A program made the translations under genes and the position numbers. From Fragilariopsis cylindrus CCMP1102 (lineage: Eukaryota; Bacillariophyta; Bacillariophyceae; Bacillariales; Bacillariaceae): DNA of 64,000 nt. The notes below the pieces were generated by a model. That model searched no databases. It was not told the DNA's origin and saw only the letters and a list, made by a program, of their open reading frames with translations. Location: assembly GCA_900095095.1 (NCBI GenBank), contig FMBT01000418.1:1-64000 (forward strand), in the 5' to 3' direction. Positions 1,228-57,840 of this stretch are shown here, in pieces (position 1 is the stretch's first letter; each line of letters starts with the position of its first letter).

Positions 1228-3834
1228 ATGACAATGGGATTCGAAGGAGATGGCGACCCGCCCTTAGGGAGCGTGGAAGATGCAGCGGATGCTACAGAGG
1301 TCGGGATGGACCTAGAAGAAACACCAAATGCAGTAGAAGGAAAATCCGTGGAACATTCAGGAAGATCTTCTCTCCAGACCGAGGCAGCAAAAACAGCAGG
1401 CACAACACCTACTGTTATGCAGAAGATAGACGAGACTGACGACGATGGAAAGTTCGATGATTACAAGTACAGGAAATGGAGGAAGATCAACATAGCAATC
1501 AAAGTAGATCTTATTGGAGAGGAAATCAGCAGCCCAAACAGTATGAACACCCTAGATGACGGAAGTGACGAGCCAATGAAGCACCACCCAATCATGTCAA
1601 AACTGGCAAAATTCGTTGCAGCAGCACAAAAGAAATGTAAGACGGTAAAGATTATGAGCTCAAAGAACAGACTTGTATTAGATACAAAGGTATGTATCGA
1701 TAGTTGGTCTATCAACCGATTTAAAGAACACTTTGCTTACTCGGTTATCAAGAATAGACAAAGAAATGTGCAAGTAACATTACACATTGATTACGGTGAA
1801 ACACAAAGCTTATGGAAATTAAAACAAAAGTTATTTGATACAATTAAAGCAGAAGGATTATGGATTATCAATCATAATGGCCCAATTGATGTCGTTGAAA
1901 CAACACAAACCGGATTCGTAGCAAAACTCCATCCCAACTTACACCGAGTAGGATTTCAGAACAAACTGAATACCAGTATCAAAGAATTCTTAGTAGAAAG
2001 AAAGACAGATCTTATGTTGAGAGCACAGTTAATTCCGGGAATAAAGGATTGGGCAGGAGAGGAACTACCGGAAGTACAGATCATACCGTTAACACTACAA
2101 GGATCATACAACAAAGGAAACAATTCGAAAATTCAAGCCGTCGGTATCTCAGTTCAAAGTAAATACAAATCATTATTTCGATACATTCTGACGACAATTT
2201 GTTATGACATGGGCTATGACTATGTCGATTTCACGATGAAATACGACACACAACTGAAGCCAACATACAACAAACTGGTTAGGACACACGAAGAGTTTAT
2301 GTTTAACCACAAGATTATTAACATCCATCAAATGGAAAGATCCGAAATGCAAACCTGTCTAAAAGATTTACAAACTATCACAACAGTAATGTCAGTCGAT
2401 GAAACAGTTATAACAGAAAAGAACGGAACATGGGTACTTGTTATGCAGAACCCTCTAGTACAGAAGGATCTTGAAAAGATTGACAGCATTATCTCGAACA
2501 ATCCAGTAATGACAAACAGGAAATTTAATCATTTACCTTTCCGAAAACGGCAACCTAGCGAAAGTATGAATACTGATGCCATATCATCTCAGAAGGACAG
2601 ACTCAAAGATTTTACTGCAACACCACTTGGTTCCAATGACACTTGGAGTAGCAAACTGTTTCCACCAAGAAATATCACGACCAGGAAAGGAGGAGCATCT
2701 AACAAAACAACGATTTCAATTGACGACGAGACAGTAACGACCTTAGCAGACACAGTAGCCACATTACAAAGACAAGTGCATCAAATGGAAGAAAAAATGA
2801 GATCTACAGCAACAACAATTACATCAATCAAAGAAAGAGTGACGATTGGAGAATCAAAAGGAAAGAAACAGGCAGCTGCCATAGGAGTATTGGAGAGCAA
2901 CCAAGAGAGGCTTGCGACAACCGTAACAGGACAAATGAAACTGATCAATGACAATATGGAAGAAGCGAAAGCAGAAAAGGCAGAGAGTGACAGAGTACTG
3001 CATTCTATGCTTCAACGACTACTGAATAGCAACAGCAATAGCAATGACGACTACGGGGATAGTAATAATAATTTGATCACGCCACCACCAGTACAGACGA
3101 ATATAACAAATAATAATAATGCCCAACAGGTACAGATATACAGTGGTGCAACGTCCACCCAGAATACACTATCAAACACTGGAAGCATCGCTCCATCGTC
3201 ATCAGGAACAGTGAAACGGAATATTACCTCTATGTCTGATAACAATGAACGAGTAACTAACTCACCGGAAAAAAGTAAACAAAAACAGAATGAAGCTATA
3301 CCAATCGAGATTGATTTCAATAAATTCACCACCGATGGTACAAATGCAACAGAAGATACTGAAATGGAAACCCAAACCCATATCGAAGCAGCACCACCTG
3401 AGATACAACGGATAACTAACGATACAGATATGGACTATGGCGAGGGTAATCAGGACAGCAACAACATAGGATACTTAGGGTCAGAGGCATCCTTAGGAAC
3501 TAGAGATTCGCACGAAACACTAACAGTAGTTGAAGAAGAACAGTCAATCACAAGCCACAATTTCAACAATGGAACAGAAGGAATGGACTACACAACAGGC
3601 TTCCTTACAGTGATGAACGGTTCACCGATTAGACAAGCAGTAAGACAACGAATGATTAACCATCTCTCACCAAATCCATATTCTGCATTAAACGCAGAAA
3701 CCAATAGAAATAATAATGACAATAATAACAATAGTAATATTAATGATATTGACAACAACAATAATAATAACAATATCGAATCCATTCAAACAAATACATC
3801 TGCAAAGACAGATATGCATCCGCACAATGAATAG
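1228..3834 (+). CDS. Retrotransposon ORF1 protein, coiled coil (868 aa)
   Basis: This is the first ORF of the LINE. By position it is the nucleic-acid-binding structural protein that packages element RNA. No CCHC zinc knuckle is visible, so it is not a gag-like knuckle ORF1p. Residues about 130-450 form a globular, charged region with a GLW...GPIDVVETTQTGF stretch. Residues about 500-600 are a long predicted coiled coil (ATLQRQVHQMEEKM, later IGVLESNQERLATTV), a plausible oligomerisation segment. The last 250 residues are Asn/Ser/Thr-rich and disordered. The start is the first ATG of the frame; a second Met lies two codons later. The stop codon overlaps the start of ORF2 in AATGAATAG. Function is inferred from position and the coiled coil. 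Confidence 0.8.
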   Translation: MTMGFEGDGDPPLGSVEDAADATEVGMDLEETPNAVEGKSVEHSGRSSLQTEAAKTAGTTPTVMQKIDETDDDGKFDDYKYRKWRKINIAIKVDLIGEEISSPNSMNTLDDGSDEPMKHHPIMSKLAKFVAAAQKKCKTVKIMSSKNRLVLDTKVCIDSWSINRFKEHFAYSVIKNRQRNVQVTLHIDYGETQSLWKLKQKLFDTIKAEGLWIINHNGPIDVVETTQTGFVAKLHPNLHRVGFQNKLNTSIKEFLVERKTDLMLRAQLIPGIKDWAGEELPEVQIIPLTLQGSYNKGNNSKIQAVGISVQSKYKSLFRYILTTICYDMGYDYVDFTMKYDTQLKPTYNKLVRTHEEFMFNHKIINIHQMERSEMQTCLKDLQTITTVMSVDETVITEKNGTWVLVMQNPLVQKDLEKIDSIISNNPVMTNRKFNHLPFRKRQPSESMNTDAISSQKDRLKDFTATPLGSNDTWSSKLFPPRNITTRKGGASNKTTISIDDETVTTLADTVATLQRQVHQMEEKMRSTATTITSIKERVTIGESKGKKQAAAIGVLESNQERLATTVTGQMKLINDNMEEAKAEKAESDRVLHSMLQRLLNSNSNSNDDYGDSNNNLITPPPVQTNITNNNNAQQVQIYSGATSTQNTLSNTGSIAPSSSGTVKRNITSMSDNNERVTNSPEKSKQKQNEAIPIEIDFNKFTTDGTNATEDTEMETQTHIEAAPPEIQRITNDTDMDYGEGNQDSNNIGYLGSEASLGTRDSHETLTVVEEEQSITSHNFNNGTEGMDYTTGFLTVMNGSPIRQAVRQRMINHLSPNPYSALNAETNRNNNDNNNNSNINDIDNNNNNNNIESIQTNTSAKTDMHPHNE

Positions 3835-4587
3835 AGGTGATGATGATAATGAGAACAATGAGGAGAAGAAATTATTAGCATCAAGAAAACAATTTAAAGA
3901 ACAACAAAATAATGAAACAAATATACCAGAGTTAATTAGTAGATATGATGCTGCTGAATCATCAGATGATGATAGTGAAGAAGACACTCCACGACGACGA
4001 GAGCAGCTACCGATTGAAACAAGACTGGAAAAACTAAAAGAAGCAATAGAAAGAATAAGTAGTGTACAGAGAGAAAACAGAATGCCGGGACTGCAGGAAA
4101 GGAATAGAGAAGACAGTGATAGTGAGAGTGATAACGAAGAGGATGATGAGAACAACGACATACCAAGACTACAAGAAAGAGACAGAGAGGACAGCGATAG
4201 TGAAGACGACAAAGAAGATGAAAATAGTGGAATAAACACTAAATCAGTGCGAAATAATGAAGACCCAAGCCAATTAAGGACTAAATTATCGCGAATTGCA
4301 GAAATAAAAACTAATTCAGTGCGAAACAGTGTACAAAATAGTGAATTAAGGACTAAATTATCGCGAATTGAAAAATCTAGGACTATAATCAACGATGAGG
4401 TTGAAACCACAGCATCAATGGAAACAACAACCACGAGAGCTATCGGAAATGGAAACAACAGTGAAGAAGATCTATTCTTTGAGTCAAGTGAAGACGAAGG
4501 TGAAGAAGAAGATAGTGTACAGAATAATAATAATTATAACAAAGAATATGAAGCAGCAACAACAGAAACAGAAACAGAAACAGCACC

Positions 4588-4619
<32 letters not shown>

Positions 4620-7600
4620 CGAATAAAATGAAGATCACACAAGCAAACCTACCTTTTGGGCATATCTGCGATGATATAGCAATAGGCAATAATACACCAT
4701 ACGTACGAGTATACTGCCAAAATGTATGTGGAATATATGATAGAGAAGGTATAGGATTAGACTCGGCATTCAATGAAATGAAAAAGGCAGGAGCCGATAT
4801 ATTTACATTCAATGAGACTCATGGTGATGAATCAAATGCATTGGCACGACGGGCTACAAAAATGTCAAAACAAAGAATGTGGAGAGATAACAATGAAGAT
4901 TGCAAAATATTACACTCATCGTCAACAGCACCAGTACTAAACTTCACCAAGCCCGGAGGAAATATGGTAGGAATAACTGGATCATTAGTGGGCAGAATAA
5001 GAGAAACAATTACAGATCCGTATGGCAGATGGTGTGGCTACACACTGATAGGAAAAGATAACAAAGAGATCATGGTGCTAACAGCTTACAACGTATCACA
5101 ACACAAAAATGCAAAGGTAGGAGATGATACACTGTACAATCAACAAACAGCATTATATAAATTGAAAGGCATTAGAGATCCAGACCCAAAGAAATTATTT
5201 ATCGAAGACTTAACAGCACTAGTAAAGAAGGCAAGGAAGGAAGACAAAGATATCATTTTAACAGGCGACTTTAATGAATTAGTAGGAGACGATCCGACCG
5301 GTATGGTGAGAGTTATCTCAGCAGGAGGACTTACAGATGCCCACAGTTATCAACATGGTATAGTAGACATACCTACATATACACGAGGAACAAAAAGATT
5401 AGATTACGTATTTGTAACGCCAAGAATGGTGGACCATATACTAAGGAGTGGGTATGAACCATTCCATGCTAGAATAGCATCAGACCACAGAGGATACTTT
5501 GTCGACTTTGCGCTAGCAGGCTTCCTAGACCGACAGCTACCATCTATTTTCTCAGCATCATCACGAGCAATCAGAGGAACCCATCCAAAGAACATTACAA
5601 AATATATGGAACACTTACATAAAGTTTTTAAGATGAGAGATATATATAGGAGAGTAAAATTACAAAAGAATTGGTACGACAAGAAGAAATTAGAAGCATT
5701 AGACAGAGAAATAACAGCAGTGATGCTAGAAGCAGAAGAACAGTGCAGAATACATCACCGCGAACCATGGTCGGAGGAAGTGAATGAAGTGATGACGACA
5801 GCAAACATACTTCGTATTCACTTGTCTAGTCTTAGAAATAATCTTGATTGCAGTACCCAAATACAGCAAAAGCAGCTCTTGCTAAAGAACCAAATAGAAC
5901 TCCCTGAAGATATCGAAGATGCATCCAAAGCGCTGAGTATGGCACAAAAGAAAAGACGAAAACTAATACGAGATAACAGAACAAAGACAACTAATATCGG
6001 TGAGGAACAGGAAGCAGCATATGTAGCAATGAATCCGGAAATGGATGCAAAAAGAGCAGCACAAATATTTCAGAGAGCAAGAGATACCAAACAGATGATG
6101 TCGGAACTACCGTCAAAGATGAACTGCCCTGGAGGACTATCAGCTGTACGGGTACCACTACCAAAAGAAGGAATTGAACTTGAGTACTTAGCAATAACGG
6201 ATGGACCAACTATTGAACGAGTAATACTGGAGAAGAATATTAGACACTTCAGGCAGGCAGAATTCACACCACTGGCATCACCAGAGGTAATAAGAAAGAT
6301 AGGATTTGGAGCAGATACGGAGACAGCAGAACGCCTCCTTGATGGAACTGGGGATCCAACTGATATAACGGATGATGAATGGGCAAGATTTCTACTAACG
6401 TCAATGAAAAGGCATTCAAATGAACTAAAAATAGAAATAACAGCTGAGAAAATGATGGAGAAGTATCGAAGATGGAAAGAAAGAACAAGCACATCACCAT
6501 CAGGTAGGCACTTAGGCCACTACCATGCGCTGTTTCGACCACTGAAGGCAAAGAACAAGAAAGATCGTGACCGATTGGATGATATTAGACAAGACATAAT
6601 TGATTTACATGCAACAATGCTGCAGACAGCGTATGATAATGAGCATGTATACAAGAGATGGGAATATATCCTCACCTGCATGCTGGCGAAGGAAACTGGA
6701 ATACCACGAATACACAGACTACGAGTGATACACTTATATGAATGTGACTTGAATCTACTATTCTCATTAGTCTTCAGAGAACTGGACCAACACTGTGAAG
6801 ATAACTTCCTACTCAACAAGGGAGTGTATGGATGCCGACCGAATAGACGAGCAATGGATCCAGTCTTTGTAGATGTAACTCAAAATGAAATGGCAATGGT
6901 AACACGGAAGGCACTGGTGAAATTCAACAACGACGCAACAGCATGCTTTGACAGAATATTAGTACATTTACTCAGTCTGTGCTTACAATCATTTGGATGC
7001 CCCAAGAAACTAACAAAAATATTAGGAGAACTGCTACGAGTAGCAAAATATGCAATAAAAACCGGAATAGGAATATCAAAAGAAACATACCAACACTCAG
7101 ATGAATCACCTGCATTTGGATCTGGACAAGGTAGTGCAGCATCAGCACAAGGATGGACCAAACTAGTTTCAATGCTATTTGATATTCATCACAAGTATGG
7201 ACACGGATGTAAATATGAAGACCCGTGGAGACTTTATAGCGAAATAATTGGTATACTAGGATTTGTGGATGATAATAATATTACAAATAATGGTGAAGAC
7301 TGGGAAACAGTACATGATATCATTATACGAACACAACATGATGCACAACTATGGAATGATTTATTGCGAGCAACGGGAGGAGCTCTAAATCTTGACAAGT
7401 GCTTTGCACAAGTATTAGCATTTCAATTTGGTCTGAATGGCGCACCAGTTATAGCACCAGCAGATCCAACCAATATAATAATAATAAAAGATAGACAAAA
7501 CAACAAAGACGTAATCATCAAACCAATATCACCATATACGACGTATCGGTTCCTAGGTACAGAACAAGGAACAAGCAAGAACCAGAAGTCACAACAAGGA

Positions 7601-10600
7601 AAATTAGTGAAAACATCATCAACACACAACAGAAAGTTAGCTTGCTCAGCAATGTCCCCAAGATGCGCTTGGGTACACTATACAGCAGTATTTCTTAGCA
7701 GCGTAGGATATCCGCTTAGCATGTGTCATCTCAGTCAACATCAATTGCATGATCTACAGAAGAAATATATCCCAACACTACTAAATAAAATCAGTATAGC
7801 CAGAACACATGCACATGCATTAGTCTTTGGACCAAGATCGTACGGAGGAGTAGGTTGTAAAGATCTCAGAATCGAACAAGGATTAGATGCAGTACAAAAC
7901 CTAATCAGACAATTACGAACTCCAGGCTATGGAAAACAATTAGCTACAATCTTCCTGAGAACTTTCCAGCATGCATCAGGATTATCGAAACCACTCTTAG
8001 AGTACCCAGGAATACGAGCACCACACCTTGAAGGACACTATTATGTACACATACGACGATTCCTCGCAAAGCACAGAGCTAGTCTAGAAATAGAATGCAT
8101 ACCAATATCAATCGACGAAAGAATAGGAGATACATACATCATGGATGTAGTATGTGCACCGGAATCGGCACAGACACTGGATAGAACACAACTGAAACAC
8201 TACACTGATGCAGAAATCAACCAAATTCACTACTGCAAGAGCTACCTACAGGTAAAAAGAATATCAGATTTATGCACGGCGGATGGAGCTTTCATCATAC
8301 CATCCATAGCAAAAGGTGAAAGAAGCATAAGACAATGTACATCCAAACTGAATGAAATAATACAAGAAAGACCTGGAGATCAATCGTGGACAGTGTGGAG
8401 AAAATTCCTGAAGACAATATGCAAACCCAGTTCGAACCAAGGTTCAAACCTGGAATCAACTGAATCTAGCTTATTAGCGCCAAGAATTGAACCACGACCA
8501 ACTGAACCAGGATCCGAACCCGGACCCAGCCCACGACTCAACCTATCCACCGAGCCAAGAACCGAACCAACCCCAATGGAAAATAGGGATGCCCTCATAG
8601 AAAATGAGGGACTGCAGCAGAGAAAAGAAGTGATAGACAAGGTTAGCATTGGAACGTTCCTACTCAAATACTGGGTCGGAGTACCTTTCAGGGGCATTGT
8701 AATGAACAATACAGGCAAATACTACAAGATACTATATGAGGACGGCGATGAAGAGGAACTTAATCATACAGAAGTAGTAAAGTATGAGAAGAAGTACAGA
8801 GAAGAGGGAAGAATGACAGGTGAGATAGGACAACGGATGAGACTGACGAAGCCACTAGGTGACTGGCTAGTACAAGCCAACGATTCAGAACGGCTGTGGC
8901 CATTCTATTATTCAGAAGAAACCGACACTCTCTACAGGAGCTTTAGAAAGGAATGGCACACCAATGGAGAATACTACTATGACTGCCACATGATAGCAGA
9001 CAATGATACATACAACTATGTATCAGAAGGCAATGTGGAACGACTACCGAATGATGCATCACCAACAGATGTAATGGACACTGAAGATGGATGGAGAATA
9101 TCAGAACACCACCCAATAAGAAAACAAGACGAAGAACACGAGGAGAGCAAAACAATAATGCAATATCTACAATCACAAGAAGAACATGTATCACAGTACT
9201 ATGCAGAAATAAATTTCTTCACCACACCGTATGAAGTTTATGAACTAATAAAATCACCAAGGAAATACAACATAGCGACCGATGGGGGGGCAATACCACT
9301 CAAAGGATCGCTTGGATTTGTTGTGGCAGATGAAGATGGAACCATACTATTATCTTGCTATGGACAACCATCAGGAAATGATCCACTTTCATTCAGATCT
9401 GAAATATGTGCACTACTAGCAGCAGCAAAGCTTTTACAATTGATAACAGAATACTACGACAATCAAATACAATGTGAAGAACCGGCAAGAGGCAAAATAC
9501 AGGTATACACAGACAGCTTAAGTATGATAAAGAAATTAGAAGCATATGATGAATATCCAACAGCTCACCTGAAGACAGTACTCAACTCAGAGTGGGATGT
9601 ACTTTCAGCATTAAGCAGGACTTTGAAGAAATTCAGAACGTATCCAAAACTAAGCTGGGTAAAGAGTCACCAAGATGATATGGTTTTTGATGAGAAAACA
9701 ATGCCACTGGATGCCTATCTGAACTCAGAAGCAGATGAATTGGCAACGATAGGACTGAAGCGACTACAAGAAAAACCTATTGTACCACTGGATCCACACA
9801 CATGTGTACAGTTCCACATCGAAGGAAGAACAATAACAAGAAACTTCAAAAACACTGTAAGTGAAATAATACAACTGAAACCACTCCGAAAATTCTACTG
9901 CAAACGATTCAAGTGGAGTGATAACATATTTGATCTGATTGATTGGGACATCTTTCGACCAGTATATAAGAAACATTTAGCTACCAAAGGAATACAGTGG
10001 ATACACAAATTTTGCATCAAGAAGCTGCCAACAGGAGAACGAGTCCACCAACGAGACCATTTCCATGACAAAAGATGTGCATCATGTCTGAAGGATGAAG
10101 ATGATGATCATATACTCCGATGTACTAAAAGAAGAAGTGTAAGAAAGAAAGTTGTCAATCGAATAAATGTACTGCACAAAACAGTGGACGAGAACTTGTG
10201 TGACATACTACAGGAAGGACTAATGGCTTACTTCAACGGAGACAGCATGTCCAACACCATGTTTAGAATAAGAGGAGGGAAAGGCATGGAAAGATACAAA
10301 AATTTAATAGATGAACAAACAGTAATAGGATGGGATAACCTGCTAAGAGGAAAATTTTCAAAGGAATGGAGAATACAACAGAAAGCTTACAAGACAAGAC
10401 TACGACTGGTAGATCCAATAGAGTATGATAAAATGAAAAGAGCGCAGAAGCGAAAACAGGAACAACAGAATTATACAAACAACAACAACAACAACAACAC
10501 AACCAAATGCAAAAACAAAACAGAAGAATTTCATGGTTTCTTTCAGTCAATAGTACCTATAATATCAGAAATGTGGACCGATAGGTGCATCGATAGGAAC

Positions 10601-11152
10601 ACACCAGTATTGGGAGGACGAATAGTGGCAGAATATGATTCACTAACAAAGAAAATTACACACCTGTATACACTGAGAGAAATGGTATTGCCGGAAGATG
10701 AAATTATGATATACGATGAAAGCCTAAAATCAAAACTTGCAGACACAAACCAAACATTGAAAAAGTGGATCAACAGATGGAGACCAGTAATCGATTATAG
10801 CATGAAACGAGTGAAGGAATTAGCACAAGAAAATAGCAAACCGATATGGCAACACTTCACTGCAAACAAACCAGCAAAGACAAAGGTATCACGGAAACTA
10901 TCGCATCAATCGAAATCGAAAACAAAGAAATATTCCAACAATCCGCTGACAAATGTGTACACAAGGTTAAAGAAGAAAAGATCATCAAGCAGAGTAATAC
11001 CAGTAATACAGAAAATCAAACATACTGCCAATCACTTGATAACAAAAATGTACAATAAGATGGGAAAGAAGCGATCAACCAGCAGAGAACAAACAGTAAC
11101 GGAAGTAGAAACGCAAATGATTGATGACAGATATGGAGATGATCCTGGATAA
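3827..11152 (+). CDS. Retrotransposon ORF2: APE endonuclease, RT, RNase H (2441 aa)
   Basis: This polyprotein nicks target DNA and reverse-transcribes element RNA. The frame is open from 3716, but the ATG at 3827 sits inside ATGAATAG, which also holds the ORF1 stop, so I take it as the start. Order by residue: acidic low-complexity leader 1-290; exonuclease-endonuclease-phosphatase domain about 292-560 (YCQNVCGI, FNETHGD, ILTGDFNEL, SDHRGYF); reverse transcriptase about 830-1200 (NNDATACFDR, FGSGQGSAA, GFVDDNN in place of the usual YADD); a Tudor-like patch about 1612-1660 (ILYEDGDEEEL); RNase H about 1815-1975 with the D-E-D-D set (ATDGG, SEICALLAA, VYTDSL, SEADELA); a CxxC...HxxxC finger near 2084; and a basic C-terminal extension. 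It is unusually long for a LINE ORF2. No frameshift or stop is seen. Confidence 0.9.
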
Positions 11153-42678: not shown

Positions 42679-44098
42679 ATGTTTGGGGGTTTATATGGCA
42701 CTGCTGCCCACCGTCATCGGTCGTTGATGCATTTAATACGGCGTAGTTGTTGCTTGACGTTGCAACTTCATCGAAACCATCATCAAATTCGAATAAATCA
42801 AAAAAGAAGATTTTCATCGCTTCATGATGATCGAAAAGCAGTGACAACTACTAGTATAAAAAATACTTCCACCCAAAAAGATGAAATAATTAAGATCTCA
42901 AGGACGACAATGGCAACGACGTCCGTAAACGCTAATACTAACAACACTGCAACAACAAATATTGTGTCGTTAGAAAAAGAAGAAGTTACCGTTTTAGTTG
43001 ACGATTTGTTACGTCGCACTCGATCCCTGATGGACAACAACAACGACGACGACGACAACAACGACGGTGGTGATAATCCCGAAATTGATGGTCCCGATGA
43101 TGGTCGTAAGAAGAATGCTCATCATGTGATCGCTTTTTCCGGTGGTATTGATTCTTCTGTTACAACTGCCTTAATTCAACGAATTGTTTCATCGTCGTCG
43201 TCGTCGTCGTCGTCGTCATCGTCATCATGGCAACTAGCATCAACTGTGTACGATACTGAAAATGTAACTGCTGTTCTTGGGTTGTCACCCGCAGTTCCTG
43301 TTGACCAACGACAATTGGCCGAACGTGTAGCAGAACAGATAGGGGTACGATTTGAACAAATTGCTACGAGCGAGGGAGACGATGAAGTTTATGTTGCTAA
43401 TGATGGTCGAGCATGCTTTGCATGTAAAACACATTTATATACATGTTTAAAAAGTATCTCCGATCGATATTCATTTTCCTCTAATAATAACAACAACAAC
43501 AACAACAGCATCAACAGCATCAACGACGTCATATTATATAATGGCACGAACGCAGATGATCTGATGGATCCGACACGATTGGGATTGATTGCAGCAGATG
43601 AATTTCATGTCCGGTCACCACTTCGTTATCTAACAAAAATGAAGTACGATTAGTAGGAAGGCATCTTGGTTTACTAAATTGGGATCATGCAGCCTCACCA
43701 TGTTTACGATCACGATTAGCAGTAGGTGTAACAGCAACATCCGATCGACTTCAAAATGTTGAATTTGCGGAACGGTTCGTACAAAATCATTACCACAACT
43801 TATAGATGATCCAACTCGGAATTTACGTGTCCGAATTTTAAGTGGTAATCGTGCAATGATTGAGGTGGATAATGATGATATTTTAAATGAAATTCAGAAT
43901 CATATTATTCGTTTTCCTAGTGAAGATTCAGAATCGTTATCATCATCATCATCATCATCATCTTCGTGGAGACAATACTTTGAACGAGACTTGGGATTTT
44001 CTTCAGTAGATGTACGACTATTCAAAACAGGATCGGTAGCAACTATGCCAACAACAATACGACAGCAACCCAATACAAAAATAAAGAACTTATTATGA
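42679..44098 (+). CDS. LarE-like PP-loop ATP-dependent sulfur transferase, two frame breaks
   Basis: This belongs to the adenine nucleotide alpha-hydrolase (PP-loop) family and is closest to LarE, which adenylates a pyridinium dicarboxylate nucleotide and donates sulfur from its own cysteine in making the nickel-pincer cofactor. Visible motifs: PP-loop AFSGGIDSSVTTAL, CFACKTHLYTCL, NGTNADDLMDPTRLG...VRSPL, and DWDHAASPCLRSRLA-like sequence, where the PCL Cys fits the LarE sacrificial position. The N-terminus (HLIRRSCCLTLQLHRNHHQIR) is basic and may be mitochondrial targeting. Poly-Asn, Asp and Ser inserts break the domain. The frame shifts by -1 at the A run 43635-43639, which hits the region before PCLRSR, and again at 43783-43786. 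Both are restored by one extra A. Substrate is inferred; other PP-loop sulfur enzymes are possible. Confidence 0.72.
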
Positions 44099-49115: not shown

Positions 49116-51842
49116 ATGGCTGACGACGAGTACAAGCGGTACATTATCCTACCAACTGGATGTAAGGTAAATGTTGATGAACATCGGTCTTTGATCGAGC
49201 TTCCCTCTGTTGTTCACTTTGATGATGGTAGTAAAAGAAATGACAACAATCGAAGTATTGTCTCTTGGAATGCGCTTTCATCTGCAATTTGGAATGGTGG
49301 ACCTCGTTCTTTCTGTTGCAGTAGCAATCATACCATCCCTGCTTCTTCTAATGAGCAGAATATCGACAATTATGGTAGCGATAAGCTGCAAAATCAAAAA
49401 AATCAAAAGGTATGCGTTCTTAATTACAAAATGCCATCAACGTATGATGGTTTAAACCCGGAACCAAAATGCTTTCTCCGAACTGCGATCGGTAAAGAAC
49501 AACTATGCAATAATGGCAGTAGTAGCAACAATAACGATGATAACCACGACGATAATGATAATCATGTATCTTCTTCTCCGCCTCCCTCCGCCTCCGCCTC
49601 CACCTCCTTATACTGTGACGAAGAAAAAACTGTTGGTCTGATGACGGCAGCATCAATGCAATCTCTACGGACAGCAAGTCGGTCGGCCGGTGGTGTTATT
49701 GTAGACGTGATCGTGACGGCAGGTATATCGAACGCAAGATCTGCGGGGGCTGATGCCGATTGCTTTTATATGTTCCCTCCAGTACCATCATCACGATCTC
49801 AAAATGATAAAGGTTGTGATGATAACGATGATGATGACAATGATAGTGGTGGTGCAGGTGAAGGTGAAAGTAGTGGCAAAGAAGGTGATAAGTCTCAAGA
49901 TAATCTTCGACGTCGTCGTGGTCCACAGAAACAACAACAAAAACAGCACGAGGAACCAAAAAATCCACCATATACACCAGGCACTATTAATACCGTCGTT
50001 ATTATTAATGCACCATTATCTGCGGGGGCTATGGTAGAAGCCTATGCAATTGTGATTGAGGCGAAATGTGCAGCTTGTGCCGATCTACGAGTACAATGTG
50101 CTAAATCATTGCAATCGTTGTACGGGAGTAACTTAGCTCAGGGAACTGGTACGGATTGTGCTGTTTTATTTACTCCTGGTAGTAAGATGGAGACTACTAC
50201 AACAAAGAATGATGATGATGATAATGTTAATGATGTCGTTATTGAATTTGCGGGAAAGCATATCCTCCTTGCAGAGATGATAGGACAGGCAGTTCGTGAA
50301 GCGACTCATGAGGCGATCCTAGCAAATATATATCACATCCACGGTGGATCACTTATTCGGTATAATATATATCAATGGTATCGATCATTTATCGGTATCC
50401 TACAAGGTGCTAGACCGTGTGTTCCACCCCTTCCAATGATGCCAGTACCCCGAGCACCCATATCGGTAATACTTTTTGGATGGATATGTGTACTCGCTTC
50501 GTATTGTATCACACCATTTATTGGTCAATCGGCAACAATATTGATAGCTGCAACTATCTGGGACCGGTAAGTAATACATCGTAAACAACTATCAATACTC
50601 TTCCTACGAGAGAGATGTTCTCGATTTTCTTTCCTTCTCGAGGAATTAGAATATATCGTAGTTCGACTCACATTTTTTTTCTCAAAACTACTTGTGCAAA
50701 TTAATCAACTTGTTGACTGATTGAATGAACCACAGCTGCCTTCCGGAGCCACCCCTTATTGTACATCCTGTTTGTCTAGCCGGATCGACGATCAGTGTCA
50801 TAACCAAAAAATGGATACCCGAGCGAGTGTATCAAAGCCCTATCCTAGGGTTTAGTTCGGGAGTATTGTTTCTCGTGGGGATGCTCTCGCTATTTCTAAG
50901 TGGAGCGTGGTTATTCCTCTACATTATCCAATTTACCACCGATGGTGTCGGAAACATTTCTTGCAGTGCATCATCTTCATTCTGTGACAAATACACTCTC
51001 CAAAATATCACGGCCTTCGCTTCCTGGATCCTAAAGGTGGTTCTTTTCAAAACGACATTTTCTCTCCAACTCTTGTGTACAATTGCACTTCAAATGGCCC
51101 GATTCTTAGAGCGCTCTCAACTCCAAGAAGCTCGAAGTCAGCTGTCGTGGTTATGCAGTCGTGATCCAACACATCTAAATTCGGAGGAACTAGCAGGTGG
51201 GACGCTTGAGAGTTTAACGGTAAGCAGGACTACAAGATAGACGATTTTTGGAAACGTCCCTTGTTTATGAGAATCAATCGCACACGGCTATGACTTGAAA
51301 ATTAAATTAAAAAAATCTCACACACGATCTGTCCTTTTTTGTTTTGACAACAGGAAAATCTTTCCGACGGTACAGTCGCCCCCTGGTTCTGGTATATCCT
51401 CTTTGGGCCTCTTGGTGCTCTGGGATACCGCATAGCGAACACACTAGACTCTCGTGTGGGCTATCATGGAAAGTTTGAATGGTTTGGGAAAGCGTCCGCT
51501 AGATTCGACGATCTGATCAATCTTATCCCTGCAAGACTAACGGCTGTGTCACTTTGTATTGCTGCAGCATTTGTACCCGATTGCAATGCAGGGAGAGGTT
51601 TGAAAACAGCCTGGGAAGACTGCGGTCAATGCGATTCACCCAATGCTGGTTGGCCGATGGGAGCTATGGCGGGAGTATTAGGGGTCAGATTGGAGAAGAG
51701 AGGACAATATTGCTTAGGAAGGAATCTGAATGGCGTCCGAGGTCCAAGTCCAAGAGATATACGAAACGGTCACCGTGTTGCGCAGCTAGCCGGAGGAATA
51801 GTATTTGTGGTTGCTGTCATTGCTTGTATTATAAAGGGATAG
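49116..51842 (+). CDS. CbiZ-CbiB fusion: cobinamide amidohydrolase plus cobinamide synthase (807 aa)
   Basis: Exons 49116-50566, 50736-51219 and 51354-51842 join cleanly (GTAAGT/CAG, GTAAGC/CAG). Residues 1 to about 430 are CbiZ: SWNALSSAIWNGG, VGLMTAASMQSL, VIVTAGISNARSAGADAD, GTINTVVIINAPLSAGAMVE, EAKCAACADL and GTGTDCAVLF. An Asn/Asp/Ser insert lies within it. CbiZ cuts the amide joining the nucleotide loop arm to the corrin ring. Residues about 440-807 are CbiB/CobD: an N-terminal membrane block, HPVCLAGSTI, then ESLTENLSDGTVAPWFW, YRIANTLDSRVGYHGKF, FGKASARFDDLINLIPARLTA and a last membrane helix. CbiB re-attaches aminopropanol(-phosphate) to cobyric acid. Both halves keep their conserved motifs, so a bifunctional membrane enzyme remodelling corrinoids is likely. 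Bacterial or archaeal ancestry is inferred; introns show it is nuclear-encoded and adapted. Confidence 0.92.
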
Positions 51843-54831: not shown

Positions 54832-57800
54832 ATGATGGCGACAACAAAAGTAGAAAGGATACGAATAAATAACACTGATAGAATAACAACGGATAACAAG
54901 ATCAGCTGCAACAACAACAACAACAGCTACAATTCGCCCTTAATAGAATTATCATCGCTGCAGAAGATGCGGCGGCTTAAACTGTTGATAGGAGGAATCG
55001 TTCTCCTGGTGATATCATCTATCACTGTGACAACACATGCATTTCAACATCCATTATCAATAACAACATTACCATCGTTACCATCACGAAAGAAATATGA
55101 ATATCCACAACAGCATCGGAATCAACAACAACAGCATTATAACTTTAATACGAACGAACAAAATCGAAAACAACAGGCATTTTTACGACGCCCTCTATTA
55201 ATGAGAGAATTTATTACTTCTCTATCGGCGGCTGAGGAGTCAACGTCATCATCAGCTGGTGATCCCTGGTCGTCGTCTGCGTCTTCTTCCTTTGCAGCTT
55301 CTTCTCCTTCGGTAGATTCTGGTATCGCTGCCGTGGATCAGGAGTTTCAGTTAGATAACGACGATCTTGATTTTGATTTTGATCACATCGATAATGATGA
55401 CGAAGAAGATGATGAGGATGATATTTTTAAAGATTTTGAAAACTTTGATTATACACCCTTTTTAGAAAAAGAGTTATCCCTCGATTCAATAGACGACGAC
55501 GACAATAATGATGATATTACTTCTGCTTCTTCTTCTGACGTTTCAACGTCCTCATCTCCGACCACGACTACAACAACAGTAGAAGAAGACAGCGTCGTAG
55601 AAATATCCATAGAAGATAAAACCACACGCAAAGAAGAACAGCAACAACAGCAACAAGATCGTCCCGCGGTGGCTGAACAATCAGTGCATGTGGTACCAAT
55701 TACGGGCTTCAATGTTGTACTTACCCATTGTACGGCGGACTTCGATTCTTTAGCGAGTGCTGTGGGGTTGGCGAAGTTGTGGTCTTCCCAAACATCCGTT
55801 GGTAACGAAGACGACGACATTACTGATAATGATGGTGATGGTGATGGTGACTATGATAGCTCTAGTAGCAACTTTCCGACATTTGTTGTACTACCTCGTG
55901 GATGCCATCCCGATGTACAACGTTTCCTCGGGCTACATAAACATCTTTTTCCTATCCGTTCTCTTAAATCTCTTCCGAAAGATCTTTCTCAGTTACATCG
56001 GTTGGCATTAGTCGATGCACAGCGAAAGGATCGGATCGGACCCGCAGAGGTATTGTTGCAGCATGCTGATCGGATCACCGTGGTCGATCATCATGTCGAT
56101 ATGGAATCGGATATTGCAAATATTACAGATTACGTAGTAGATGGAGTTGGATCCGTGTCGACGCTCATCATTGAACGACTTATGAAACAGCAAGAAAAAC
56201 AACAGGCAGCCGCATCAATGTCATTATCACCATTGCCGGTATCGACGCTAACAGCAGCTGAAGCGACGTTGTTGGCTCTGGGTATCCATGCTGATACGGG
56301 AAGCTTATGTTACGATTCAACAACTCCCCGCGATGCCTTTGCTTTGGCTTGGGTTATGGCGCAGGGGGCAAGTCAAGTCGCAATTGCGGAACATGCTAAA
56401 ACATCGCTCAGTCCCGAACAACAAAAGGTCTTGACTCAAGCTCTCGTCAACGCCAACGCCACCGTCGCACATGGGGTAACACTAACTACAGTATTGCTAA
56501 CAGCAGATGGATTTATTAACGGATTGGCAGCGGTAACTAAAGATGCTATGGAACTTAGTTCTGCTGACGTATTCCTGTTGGGAGTAGTTTACGAACCAAA
56601 ATCAGGTCGTGGGGGACGGAATAAGAAAACCCGACCACCAGGCGAAAATGTGAAATCAAAACTCCTTAAAGGAAAAGAAAAAACTATAGATCAAACAACA
56701 TCTACCGGTATTGTTCATAATCCTAGTCCGGAATATATGAATACATTGCAAAAATTGAGGTCCTCCTTCGATAAGAAGGATTTAGACGGGAATGGTTACA
56801 TAGATCGAAAAGAATTATCGGCCGCTTTGGTCAGTTCGGGAATTATTGCCACAGAAGACACAATCCTTGGTCTAATGGATACCATTGATACCAACAAAGA
56901 TGATATAATTTGTTTCGAAGAATTCGTTGAGTTTTCGAATGATGTCCAAACAAAGTCGAGGGGGCAAAATTATATGCTGCCCAGCGAAACCTCCCCTGAA
57001 ATATCTACTTCACCACCCAGTACTCTAATCATAATTGGTCGCGTCAAACCTGGTGTCAAGACGAAGTCGGTCAATCTAGGAAAACTGCTGGGAAAGCATG
57101 GTGGTGGTGGTCATCCGAAGGCAGCTTCTGCTACTGTCCGTTTGAATGACGAATCCGAAGCGGCTGGGATTATGTCCGACCTTGTTGACGAACTAATTGA
57201 AACCAGTTTACAGGAACAAGCAACGGTCGGTGATTTTATGACCTCACCCGTCTTGAGCGTGAAACCTGATATGACGGAATTCCAAGTAGAAGACTTATTT
57301 ACACGGTACGATGTCCGGGCATTACCTGTTGTGAACGAAGAAAATGAAGTGATTGGTCTGGTAACCTACAAAGAAGTAGCAGCAGCCAAGCAACGTATGT
57401 GGAATAAGGAACAGAAGCGACTGCGGCAAGAGGCAAACAAGAAGAAGCAAGACGACAATGACGACGATGATGATGATGATTCCTTATCACCGGAGGAGAA
57501 GAAAAAGATAATTGAACAACGGAAGATCGCCGATGAACAACGCCGCAGAGGACCTCCTGTGAAGGCCTGGATGAAACAGCATATCAAAACTGTAGAGGCA
57601 AGTCTTACGATGGCGGAAGTGGAAGCTATATTATTGGAGAATGATGTTGGTTGTATCCCCGTCGTTCAGGATGGTAGTCGTTATTTAGTGGGGATGGTTA
57701 CAAGGACTGATGTGTTACGACAGCATCGTTATTATCCATCCCTACATTATAACAACAAGGGGATGAGTGATTCTATAGCAGCGCGTGCACCTATCATCGC

Positions 57801-57840
57801 CTTACGAAAAAAGCTAAAGCAATTCGACCTCGATGAGTAA
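54832..57840 (+). CDS. DHH-DHHA1 phosphoesterase with EF-hand pair and two CBS domains (1002 aa)
   Basis: This is a manganese-type DHH phosphoesterase, the superfamily of nanoRNases, cyclic-dinucleotide hydrolases and pyrophosphatases. N-terminal region: a hydrophobic signal (LKLLIGGIVLLVISSITV) followed by THAFQHP, an AF-type plastid cue, then a Ser/Asp-rich linker. DHH motifs: THCTADFDSLAS near 297, ALVDAQ, VVDHHVD near 418 and GIHADTGSLCYD. Residues about 646-703 hold two EF-hand loops (DLDGNGYIDRKE, DTNKDDIICFEE) inserted before DHHA1, whose GKHGGGGHPKAAS motif lies near 760. CBS 1 is at about 798-855 and CBS 2 at about 910-965, separated by a charged coil. Related DHH-CBS proteins usually end in a tRNA nucleotidyltransferase, absent here. 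Calcium plus nucleotide control is a reasonable inference; the substrate is unknown. Confidence 0.88.
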   Translation: MMATTKVERIRINNTDRITTDNKISCNNNNNSYNSPLIELSSLQKMRRLKLLIGGIVLLVISSITVTTHAFQHPLSITTLPSLPSRKKYEYPQQHRNQQQQHYNFNTNEQNRKQQAFLRRPLLMREFITSLSAAEESTSSSAGDPWSSSASSSFAASSPSVDSGIAAVDQEFQLDNDDLDFDFDHIDNDDEEDDEDDIFKDFENFDYTPFLEKELSLDSIDDDDNNDDITSASSSDVSTSSSPTTTTTTVEEDSVVEISIEDKTTRKEEQQQQQQDRPAVAEQSVHVVPITGFNVVLTHCTADFDSLASAVGLAKLWSSQTSVGNEDDDITDNDGDGDGDYDSSSSNFPTFVVLPRGCHPDVQRFLGLHKHLFPIRSLKSLPKDLSQLHRLALVDAQRKDRIGPAEVLLQHADRITVVDHHVDMESDIANITDYVVDGVGSVSTLIIERLMKQQEKQQAAASMSLSPLPVSTLTAAEATLLALGIHADTGSLCYDSTTPRDAFALAWVMAQGASQVAIAEHAKTSLSPEQQKVLTQALVNANATVAHGVTLTTVLLTADGFINGLAAVTKDAMELSSADVFLLGVVYEPKSGRGGRNKKTRPPGENVKSKLLKGKEKTIDQTTSTGIVHNPSPEYMNTLQKLRSSFDKKDLDGNGYIDRKELSAALVSSGIIATEDTILGLMDTIDTNKDDIICFEEFVEFSNDVQTKSRGQNYMLPSETSPEISTSPPSTLIIIGRVKPGVKTKSVNLGKLLGKHGGGGHPKAASATVRLNDESEAAGIMSDLVDELIETSLQEQATVGDFMTSPVLSVKPDMTEFQVEDLFTRYDVRALPVVNEENEVIGLVTYKEVAAAKQRMWNKEQKRLRQEANKKKQDDNDDDDDDDSLSPEEKKKIIEQRKIADEQRRRGPPVKAWMKQHIKTVEASLTMAEVEAILLENDVGCIPVVQDGSRYLVGMVTRTDVLRQHRYYPSLHYNNKGMSDSIAARAPIIALRKKLKQFDLDE

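Follow-up and report, generated by a model that had tools for sequence, protein, structure and literature searches.

The window, that is, the whole 64,000-nucleotide stretch of DNA analysed here, lies on contig C288 of an assembly whose 818 contigs add up to 67,884,144 bases, and harbours a gene in which a CbiZ amidohydrolase domain is joined to a CbiB synthase domain. Splicing by script places this gene at 49116-51842 on the plus strand, from an ATG at 49116 to a stop codon ending at 51842, and divides it into three exons (Table 1), whose 2424 nt encode 807 amino acids with no internal stop. A preliminary description of this DNA had given exactly this span, which the positions of the ATG and the stop bear out, and had proposed a CbiZ-CbiB fusion, in agreement with the finding that both domains exceed their Pfam cut-offs within one spliced frame. 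It had also counted three introns; splicing yields two, both of the GT..AG type.

The CbiZ match (PF01955; residues 160-397) has an E-value of 4e-37 and 128.4 bits against a cut-off of 27, and residues from about position 48, upstream of this match, also align with other CbiZ proteins. The CbiB match (PF03186, CobD_Cbib) covers residues 476-769, with an E-value of 3e-71 and 240.3 bits against a cut-off of 34.4. Among the NCBIfam models, TIGR00380 (cobal_cbiB) is passed narrowly, with 171 bits against 165.9, two further CbiB models stay below their cut-offs (225 against 273 and 154 against 381 bits), and the CbiS model NF038002 gives 51.9 bits against 250, from the CbiZ part only. The preliminary description had rightly recognised the motifs of both families. 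It had held out the loss of catalytic residues on alignment as a counter-indication; most conserved residues are kept. CbiB retains all 20 columns conserved at 98% or more among 86 prokaryotic CbiB sequences; at the 95% level it retains 29 of 31 columns, and at the 90% level 37 of 41. CbiZ retains 18 of the 20 columns conserved at 90% or more among 20 other CbiZ sequences, including G289, T290, N292, E315, G343, T344, T346, and D347, these being conserved columns and not defined catalytic residues. In an earlier comparison with 10 other CbiZ sequences, the only one in which the partial row L147 was used, 20 of 23 columns were kept. A simple hydropathy scan marked four hydrophobic stretches in the fusion protein, and the search of solved structures with the 807-residue protein returned no match at E-values up to 1.

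The fusion is present on three contigs of the assembly, C288, C451, and C126, with surroundings that are 94.6-97.6% identical over main alignments of 6.6-7.3 kb and 88-90% identical over shorter pieces, a similarity resembling that of haplotypes. The Silic_transp family, a marker of diatoms that some other eukaryotes are said to carry too, was found at 27 places in the assembly (best E-value 1e-226); 14 control prokaryotes gave a single match below the cut-off and none above it. The GC content at third codon positions is 0.36 in the fusion gene and 0.27-0.45 in six other open reading frames (ORFs) of the window. Because of the silicon transporters, the host is most likely a diatom. The evidence supports a eukaryotic nuclear gene. 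Bacterial contamination or a chimaeric contig, an idea that the prokaryotic kind of both domains might encourage, has a negligible probability given the two GT-AG introns, the neighbourhood shared by three contigs of one genome, the third-position GC content within the range of the other ORFs, and the silicon transporter genes, and the view of the preliminary description that the gene is eukaryotic thus stands. A nitrogen-fixing endosymbiont within the assembly was likewise rejected, as nifH had no match there; this concerns the assembly and not organelles outside it.

Several features argue that CbiZ-CbiB is one gene encoding a true fusion. As exon 1 carries CbiZ together with the first CbiB residues, CbiB needs splicing, which points to one gene and not to two neighbours. 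In a two-gene arrangement, CbiZ would end at the in-frame stop 50568-50570, within the intron 1 donor, and CbiB would start at the ATG at 50725, inside intron 1; without splicing, exon 1 does run into a stop at the donor itself, and the ORF at 50725-51240 does open with an ATG. This arrangement is nevertheless very improbable and was rejected, since the Pfam CbiB match begins with profile position 1 at residue 476, in exon 1, eight residues before its end and in frame with CbiZ. A separate CbiB would also lose A479 and D483, which, like P489, H494, and P495 of exon 2, are invariant in an alignment of six CbiB sequences, five of them bacterial or archaeal, and which are not among the 90%-conserved columns of the wider set of 86. 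Moreover, exon 1 continues for about 85 residues after CbiZ, with a hydrophobic stretch at 444-462, and residues 410-484 show no amino-acid change between C288 and C451. The start and donor words of exon 1 are identical in all three genomic copies, and the same holds for both splice-site words of intron 1 and for the word at the intron 2 acceptor. At the intron 2 donor, the 12-base word is missing from the C451 copy, which aligns across this intron despite its loss.

Table 1. Parts of the CbiZ-CbiB gene, in window coordinates.
Feature	Position	Strand	Remarks
Exon 1	49116..50566	+	Residues 1-483 and two bases of codon 484 (splicing script, Pfam)
Exon 1, content	49116..50566	+	Entire CbiZ domain, linker, and first CbiB residues
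CbiZ amidohydrolase domain	49593..50306	+	PF01955 match, residues 160-397
Low-complexity insert within CbiZ	49782..49970	+	Residues 223-285, fast-evolving
CbiB half, start in exon 1	50463..50566	+	Residue 450 onward as cut; Pfam match from 476
Intron 1	50567..50735	+	169 nt, phase 2, inside the CbiB half
Exon 2	50736..51219	+	CbiB, profile positions 10-143
Intron 2	51220..51353	+	134 nt, phase 0
Exon 3	51354..51842	+	CbiB profile positions 144-276, its most conserved part; stop codon

Comparison of the C288 and C451 copies suggests that both halves are under constraint, since each has changed less than the non-coding DNA. Divergence is 1.0-1.9% in the exons and 4.6-7.1% in the introns and flanks. 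When the two low-complexity inserts of CbiZ are left out, the remaining CbiZ core diverges by 1.4% and CbiB by 0.9%, against 6.0% for flanks and introns together (Fisher p 6e-9 for the CbiZ core and 7e-14 for CbiB). The 834 bases of the CbiZ core hold nine synonymous and three nonsynonymous changes, a ratio of nonsynonymous to synonymous rates (dN/dS) of about 0.10. With four synonymous and six nonsynonymous changes in 1074 bases, CbiB has a dN/dS of about 0.48, a loose ratio as it rests on ten changes. The inserts themselves diverge by 5.5% (residues 223-285) and 12.8%. The C126 copy is a mosaic, free of substitutions relative to the window in the upstream kilobase, the introns, and exons 2-3, whereas exon 1 carries 27 of them and the downstream sequence differs by 3.7%.

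The relatives of each half were sought in prokaryotic, viral, and plasmid sequences. In the flanks fetched for the best 80 of at least 588 confirmed prokaryotic CbiB relatives, a CbiZ gene stood beside cbiB at five loci and was always directly adjacent, in the order cbiZ-cbiB at four of them (L061 and L080 of Anaerolineae, L073 and L079 of Bacillaceae) and in the reverse order in the archaeon L068; CbiZ was found in 10 of 50 genomes searched. This direct adjacency makes it plausible that an operon pair was joined after transfer. No single ORF appeared in both the CbiB and the CbiZ lists of the prokaryotic loci examined, but the sample is small, and the donor may have been a prokaryote with the two already fused. 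Neither half is assigned a donor by its separate tree. All of the top eight CbiB matches, within the best 80 of at least 588, are titled Chloroflexi, Chloroflexota, or Anaerolineae. In the CbiB tree of 87 rows, however, the Chloroflexota groups do not include the diatom, which stands on a long branch that no starred set encloses, and no donor of CbiB is claimed. In the CbiZ tree (21 rows), the diatom groups weakly (85/84) with six alphaproteobacterial rows on long branches. Alternative placements of CbiZ gave p-AU values of 0.051 (three Chloroflexota-like rows), 0.25 (the same rows with L068), 0.056 (Bacilli), 0.23 (Actinomycetota), 0.21 (haloarchaea), and 0.084 (L138 with Dehalococcoides). 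The CbiB pattern was matched by 25 stretches of viral contigs, none of them encoding a relative. CbiB relatives occur in 153 plasmid records; the diatom CbiZ query found no match among plasmids, and bacterial or archaeal CbiZ queries matched 46, 35, and 31 records. Twelve plasmid CbiZ loci were taken and 11 used, a partial Methylorubrum gene being left out.

The same genome was searched for seven partner families, CobU, CobS, CobT, BluB, CobD, METE, and METH. CobU, CobS, and CobT all exceed their Pfam cut-offs and lie within about 6.4 kb of contig C679 (600921-607273), with CobS and CobT together and CobU about 3.5 kb off. CobU was assigned to the cobinamide kinase/guanylyltransferase family, and CobT, with 310 bits, is far over its Pfam cut-off. 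In the region C679:605094-607519, CobT and the C-terminal stretch of CobS are read in a single open frame, 553 residues long, which looks like a CobS-CobT fusion, and a partial second CobS copy is found on C127. A BluB homologue on C91 (1033109-1033720) scored 184 bits when the genome was searched and 188.5 bits when the ORF was taken, against a cut-off of 150, which was passed in three of the 14 control genomes; this ORF has 523 amino acids with long low-complexity ends. CbiZ, CbiB, CobU, CobS, and CobT are thus all encoded in this genome, as in a CbiZ-dependent remodelling pathway, and BluB, over its cut-off, suggests an own supply of the lower base 5,6-dimethylbenzimidazole (DMB). These genes fit corrinoid salvage or remodelling, as the preliminary description had supposed in proposing a salvage route. 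Its remark that diatoms commonly need B12 has to be qualified for this one: METE was found at nine places and METH at two, and by the criterion of an encoded METE, the diatom would be a facultative B12 user and not an obligate auxotroph.

As side observations on these loci, the second CobU exon (C679:601453-602097) runs on into a PterinBD-DUF4346 domain, with 61 bits against a cut-off of 29.6. An ORF for an MFS transporter (608063-610078) and an ORF without a Pfam match (603002-604378) adjoin CobU, CobS, and CobT, and the neighbour of the BluB ORF resembles a reverse transcriptase by eye.

From the named families, we consider it likely that the fusion is a bifunctional, probably membrane-bound corrinoid-remodelling enzyme, with CobU, CobS, CobT, and BluB completing the nucleotide loop and with pseudocobalamin as its most likely substrate. 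The CbiZ domain would cut, by hydrolysis, the amide bond between the corrin ring and the aminopropanol-nucleotide loop, releasing adenosylcobyric acid, to which the CbiB domain would attach a new aminopropanol phosphate, giving adenosylcobinamide phosphate. CobU, CobS, and CobT would then add DMB, supplied by the BluB homologue, as the new lower base, so that an unusable corrinoid, most likely cyanobacterial pseudocobalamin, would be converted to cobalamin for METH. By joining the two domains, the fusion may hand cobyric acid straight from CbiZ to CbiB. While the sequence shows the gene structure, the two domains with their conserved positions, the constraint on the coding DNA, and the partner genes, it is a prediction which reactions run, on what substrate, in which direction, and whether at a membrane. 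As to direction, the Rhodobacter sphaeroides CbiZ cleaves pseudocobalamin and not cobalamin in vitro, according to the available part of PMC7733943, and a diatom CbiZ that spared cobalamin in the same manner would give the cycle its direction.

A number of observations weigh against this reading. CobT falls below its NCBIfam cut-off (300.9 against 319.3), and CobS changes frame near residue 160, where a clean intron was not seen. One of the nine METE places has two in-frame stops, and both METH places have one each, perhaps introns in all these cases. CbiZ deviates at two conserved positions, 352 and 386, and a leave-one-out count places the diatom CbiB in the lower part of the ranking, alongside several bacterial sequences; the looseness of the CbiB dN/dS counts here as well. 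CobD, the threonine-phosphate decarboxylase that makes the aminopropanol phosphate attached by CbiB, was not found: an exon-by-exon profile search, in which an intron-split gene could score low, gave 20 places below the cut-off and none above it, this cut-off being passed in three of the 14 control genomes. Seven of the 20 places were examined singly; the top-scoring one, an exon, is better matched by HisC (histidinol-phosphate aminotransferase), with 224 against 143 bits, and the six others fit general aminotransferases best. Finally, exon 1 is interrupted by two single-base breaks in the C451 copy and by several frame-breaking indels in the C126 copy, all of which were taken as assembly errors, short of proof. 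With the CbiZ part frame-broken in two of three genomic copies, low-complexity inserts within CbiZ, and CobD not found, the gene might be decaying, with its CbiZ part being lost and only CbiB, or neither half, in use. This is improbable, since dN/dS is lower in the CbiZ core than in CbiB and the mosaic of C126 points to assembly trouble.

A stronger competitor, although still unlikely, is salvage of the archaeal type, in which CbiZ would act on cobinamide only and yield cobyric acid, CbiB would turn this into cobinamide phosphate, and complete cobamides, pseudocobalamin included, would stay unopened. The CbiZ tree leaves the type of the enzyme unsettled, given its weak alphaproteobacterial grouping on long branches and the fact that none of the six other placements was rejected at 0.05. 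However, bacterial CobU phosphorylates cobinamide directly and archaea take the route through CbiZ and CbiB, as the consulted part of PMC3541065 has it. With CobU in the genome, plain cobinamide would hardly need CbiZ-CbiB, which would then be a redundant bypass, and complete cobamides are favoured as the substrate. The letters GTGTDC of the diatom CbiZ are, moreover, common to five of the six alphaproteobacterial CbiZ sequences and occur in none of the 14 others compared.

A more far-reaching version of the remodelling hypothesis, to which we give somewhat less than even chances, is that of a self-sufficient eukaryote, in which CbiZ-CbiB would strip the whole loop from cyanobacterial pseudocobalamin and channel cobyric acid between its two active sites, BluB would make DMB, and cobalamin would result with no DMB added from outside. 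Since the search did not find CobD, the phosphate attached by CbiB may be that of ethanolamine, plentiful in eukaryotes, in which case the cobamide of the diatom would be norcobalamin.

Compared with known systems, the diatom CbiZ shares with the R. sphaeroides type (PF01955) the family match, the 18 of 20 columns, and a genome with CbiB, CobU, CobS, and CobT, and differs from it by its introns, its two low-complexity inserts, and its fusion to CbiB, in a protein known here from its sequence. The CbiB half passes the cut-offs of PF03186 and TIGR00380 and keeps the most conserved columns of these synthases but carries an extra hydrophobic segment and CbiZ in front, and its branch is long, none of the 86 other rows being closely related. 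In archaeal CbiS, CbiZ is fused to an alpha-ribazole phosphatase, in agreement with the NCBIfam description; there too, CbiZ is one half of a bifunctional salvage protein, whereas the diatom partner is CbiB and not a phosphatase. The two Bacillaceae loci with the order cbiZ-cbiB (L073 and L079) have an ABC-ATPase-CbiZ ORF directly upstream of cbiB, again a CbiZ fusion of the salvage pathway, but with a partner read by eye as a transporter ATPase in place of CbiB.

In algae, the same physiological task is known from Chlamydomonas reinhardtii and Pavlova lutheri, which remodel pseudocobalamin, with CobT and CobS present, and need added DMB (PMC4850488, as far as available); the diatom genome has CbiZ, CbiB, CobU, and BluB. 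The accessible text of Helliwell 2016 (PMC4850488) states that added DMB restored growth on pseudocobalamin in two of eight algae and that neither cbiZ nor cbiB occurred in the algal genomes analysed. In the portion available of Mok 2020 (PMC7733943), the algal remodelling enzyme is yet to be discovered, CbiR and CbiZ being absent from the P. lutheri transcriptome and the C. reinhardtii genome. Elhai 2026 (PMC12903740) describes BluB and CobT transcripts in the haptophyte Braarudosphaera bigelowii, proposed to serve remodelling, so that an algal BluB is not new. In contrast to the diatom, the consulted sections report no other cobamide enzymes for this eukaryote with BluB and CobT and name neither CbiZ nor CbiB; they speculate that Rhopalodiacean diatoms might remodel too, cbiZ again not being named. 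A literature search by titles and abstract openings, with subscription papers and database annotations outside its scope, found no report of an algal, diatom, or eukaryotic CbiZ or of a CbiZ-CbiB protein. Thus, the families are known, and the joining of CbiZ to CbiB and the eukaryotic host are new as far as tested. The fusion is a promising candidate for the means by which some algae turn unusable forms of B12 into usable ones, and a diatom gene accompanied by most of the partner set makes the question of algal remodelling directly testable. If true, it would change which phytoplankton can live on the form of B12 released by cyanobacteria, and the fusion would offer a natural case of a scarce intermediate handed over between two steps.

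Elsewhere in the window, three further ORFs were noted on the plus strand. The ORF at 42679-43653, one exon only, resembles a LarE sulfur transferase, with 80 bits, below the cut-off of 150. At 54832-57840, an ORF of 1002 amino acids combines DHH with two CBS stretches and a pair of EF-hands, with a weak DHHA1 match below cut-off, an unusual layout for a calcium-linked phosphoesterase. A third, with 2478 amino acids at 3716-11152, looks by eye like the polyprotein of a non-LTR retroelement.
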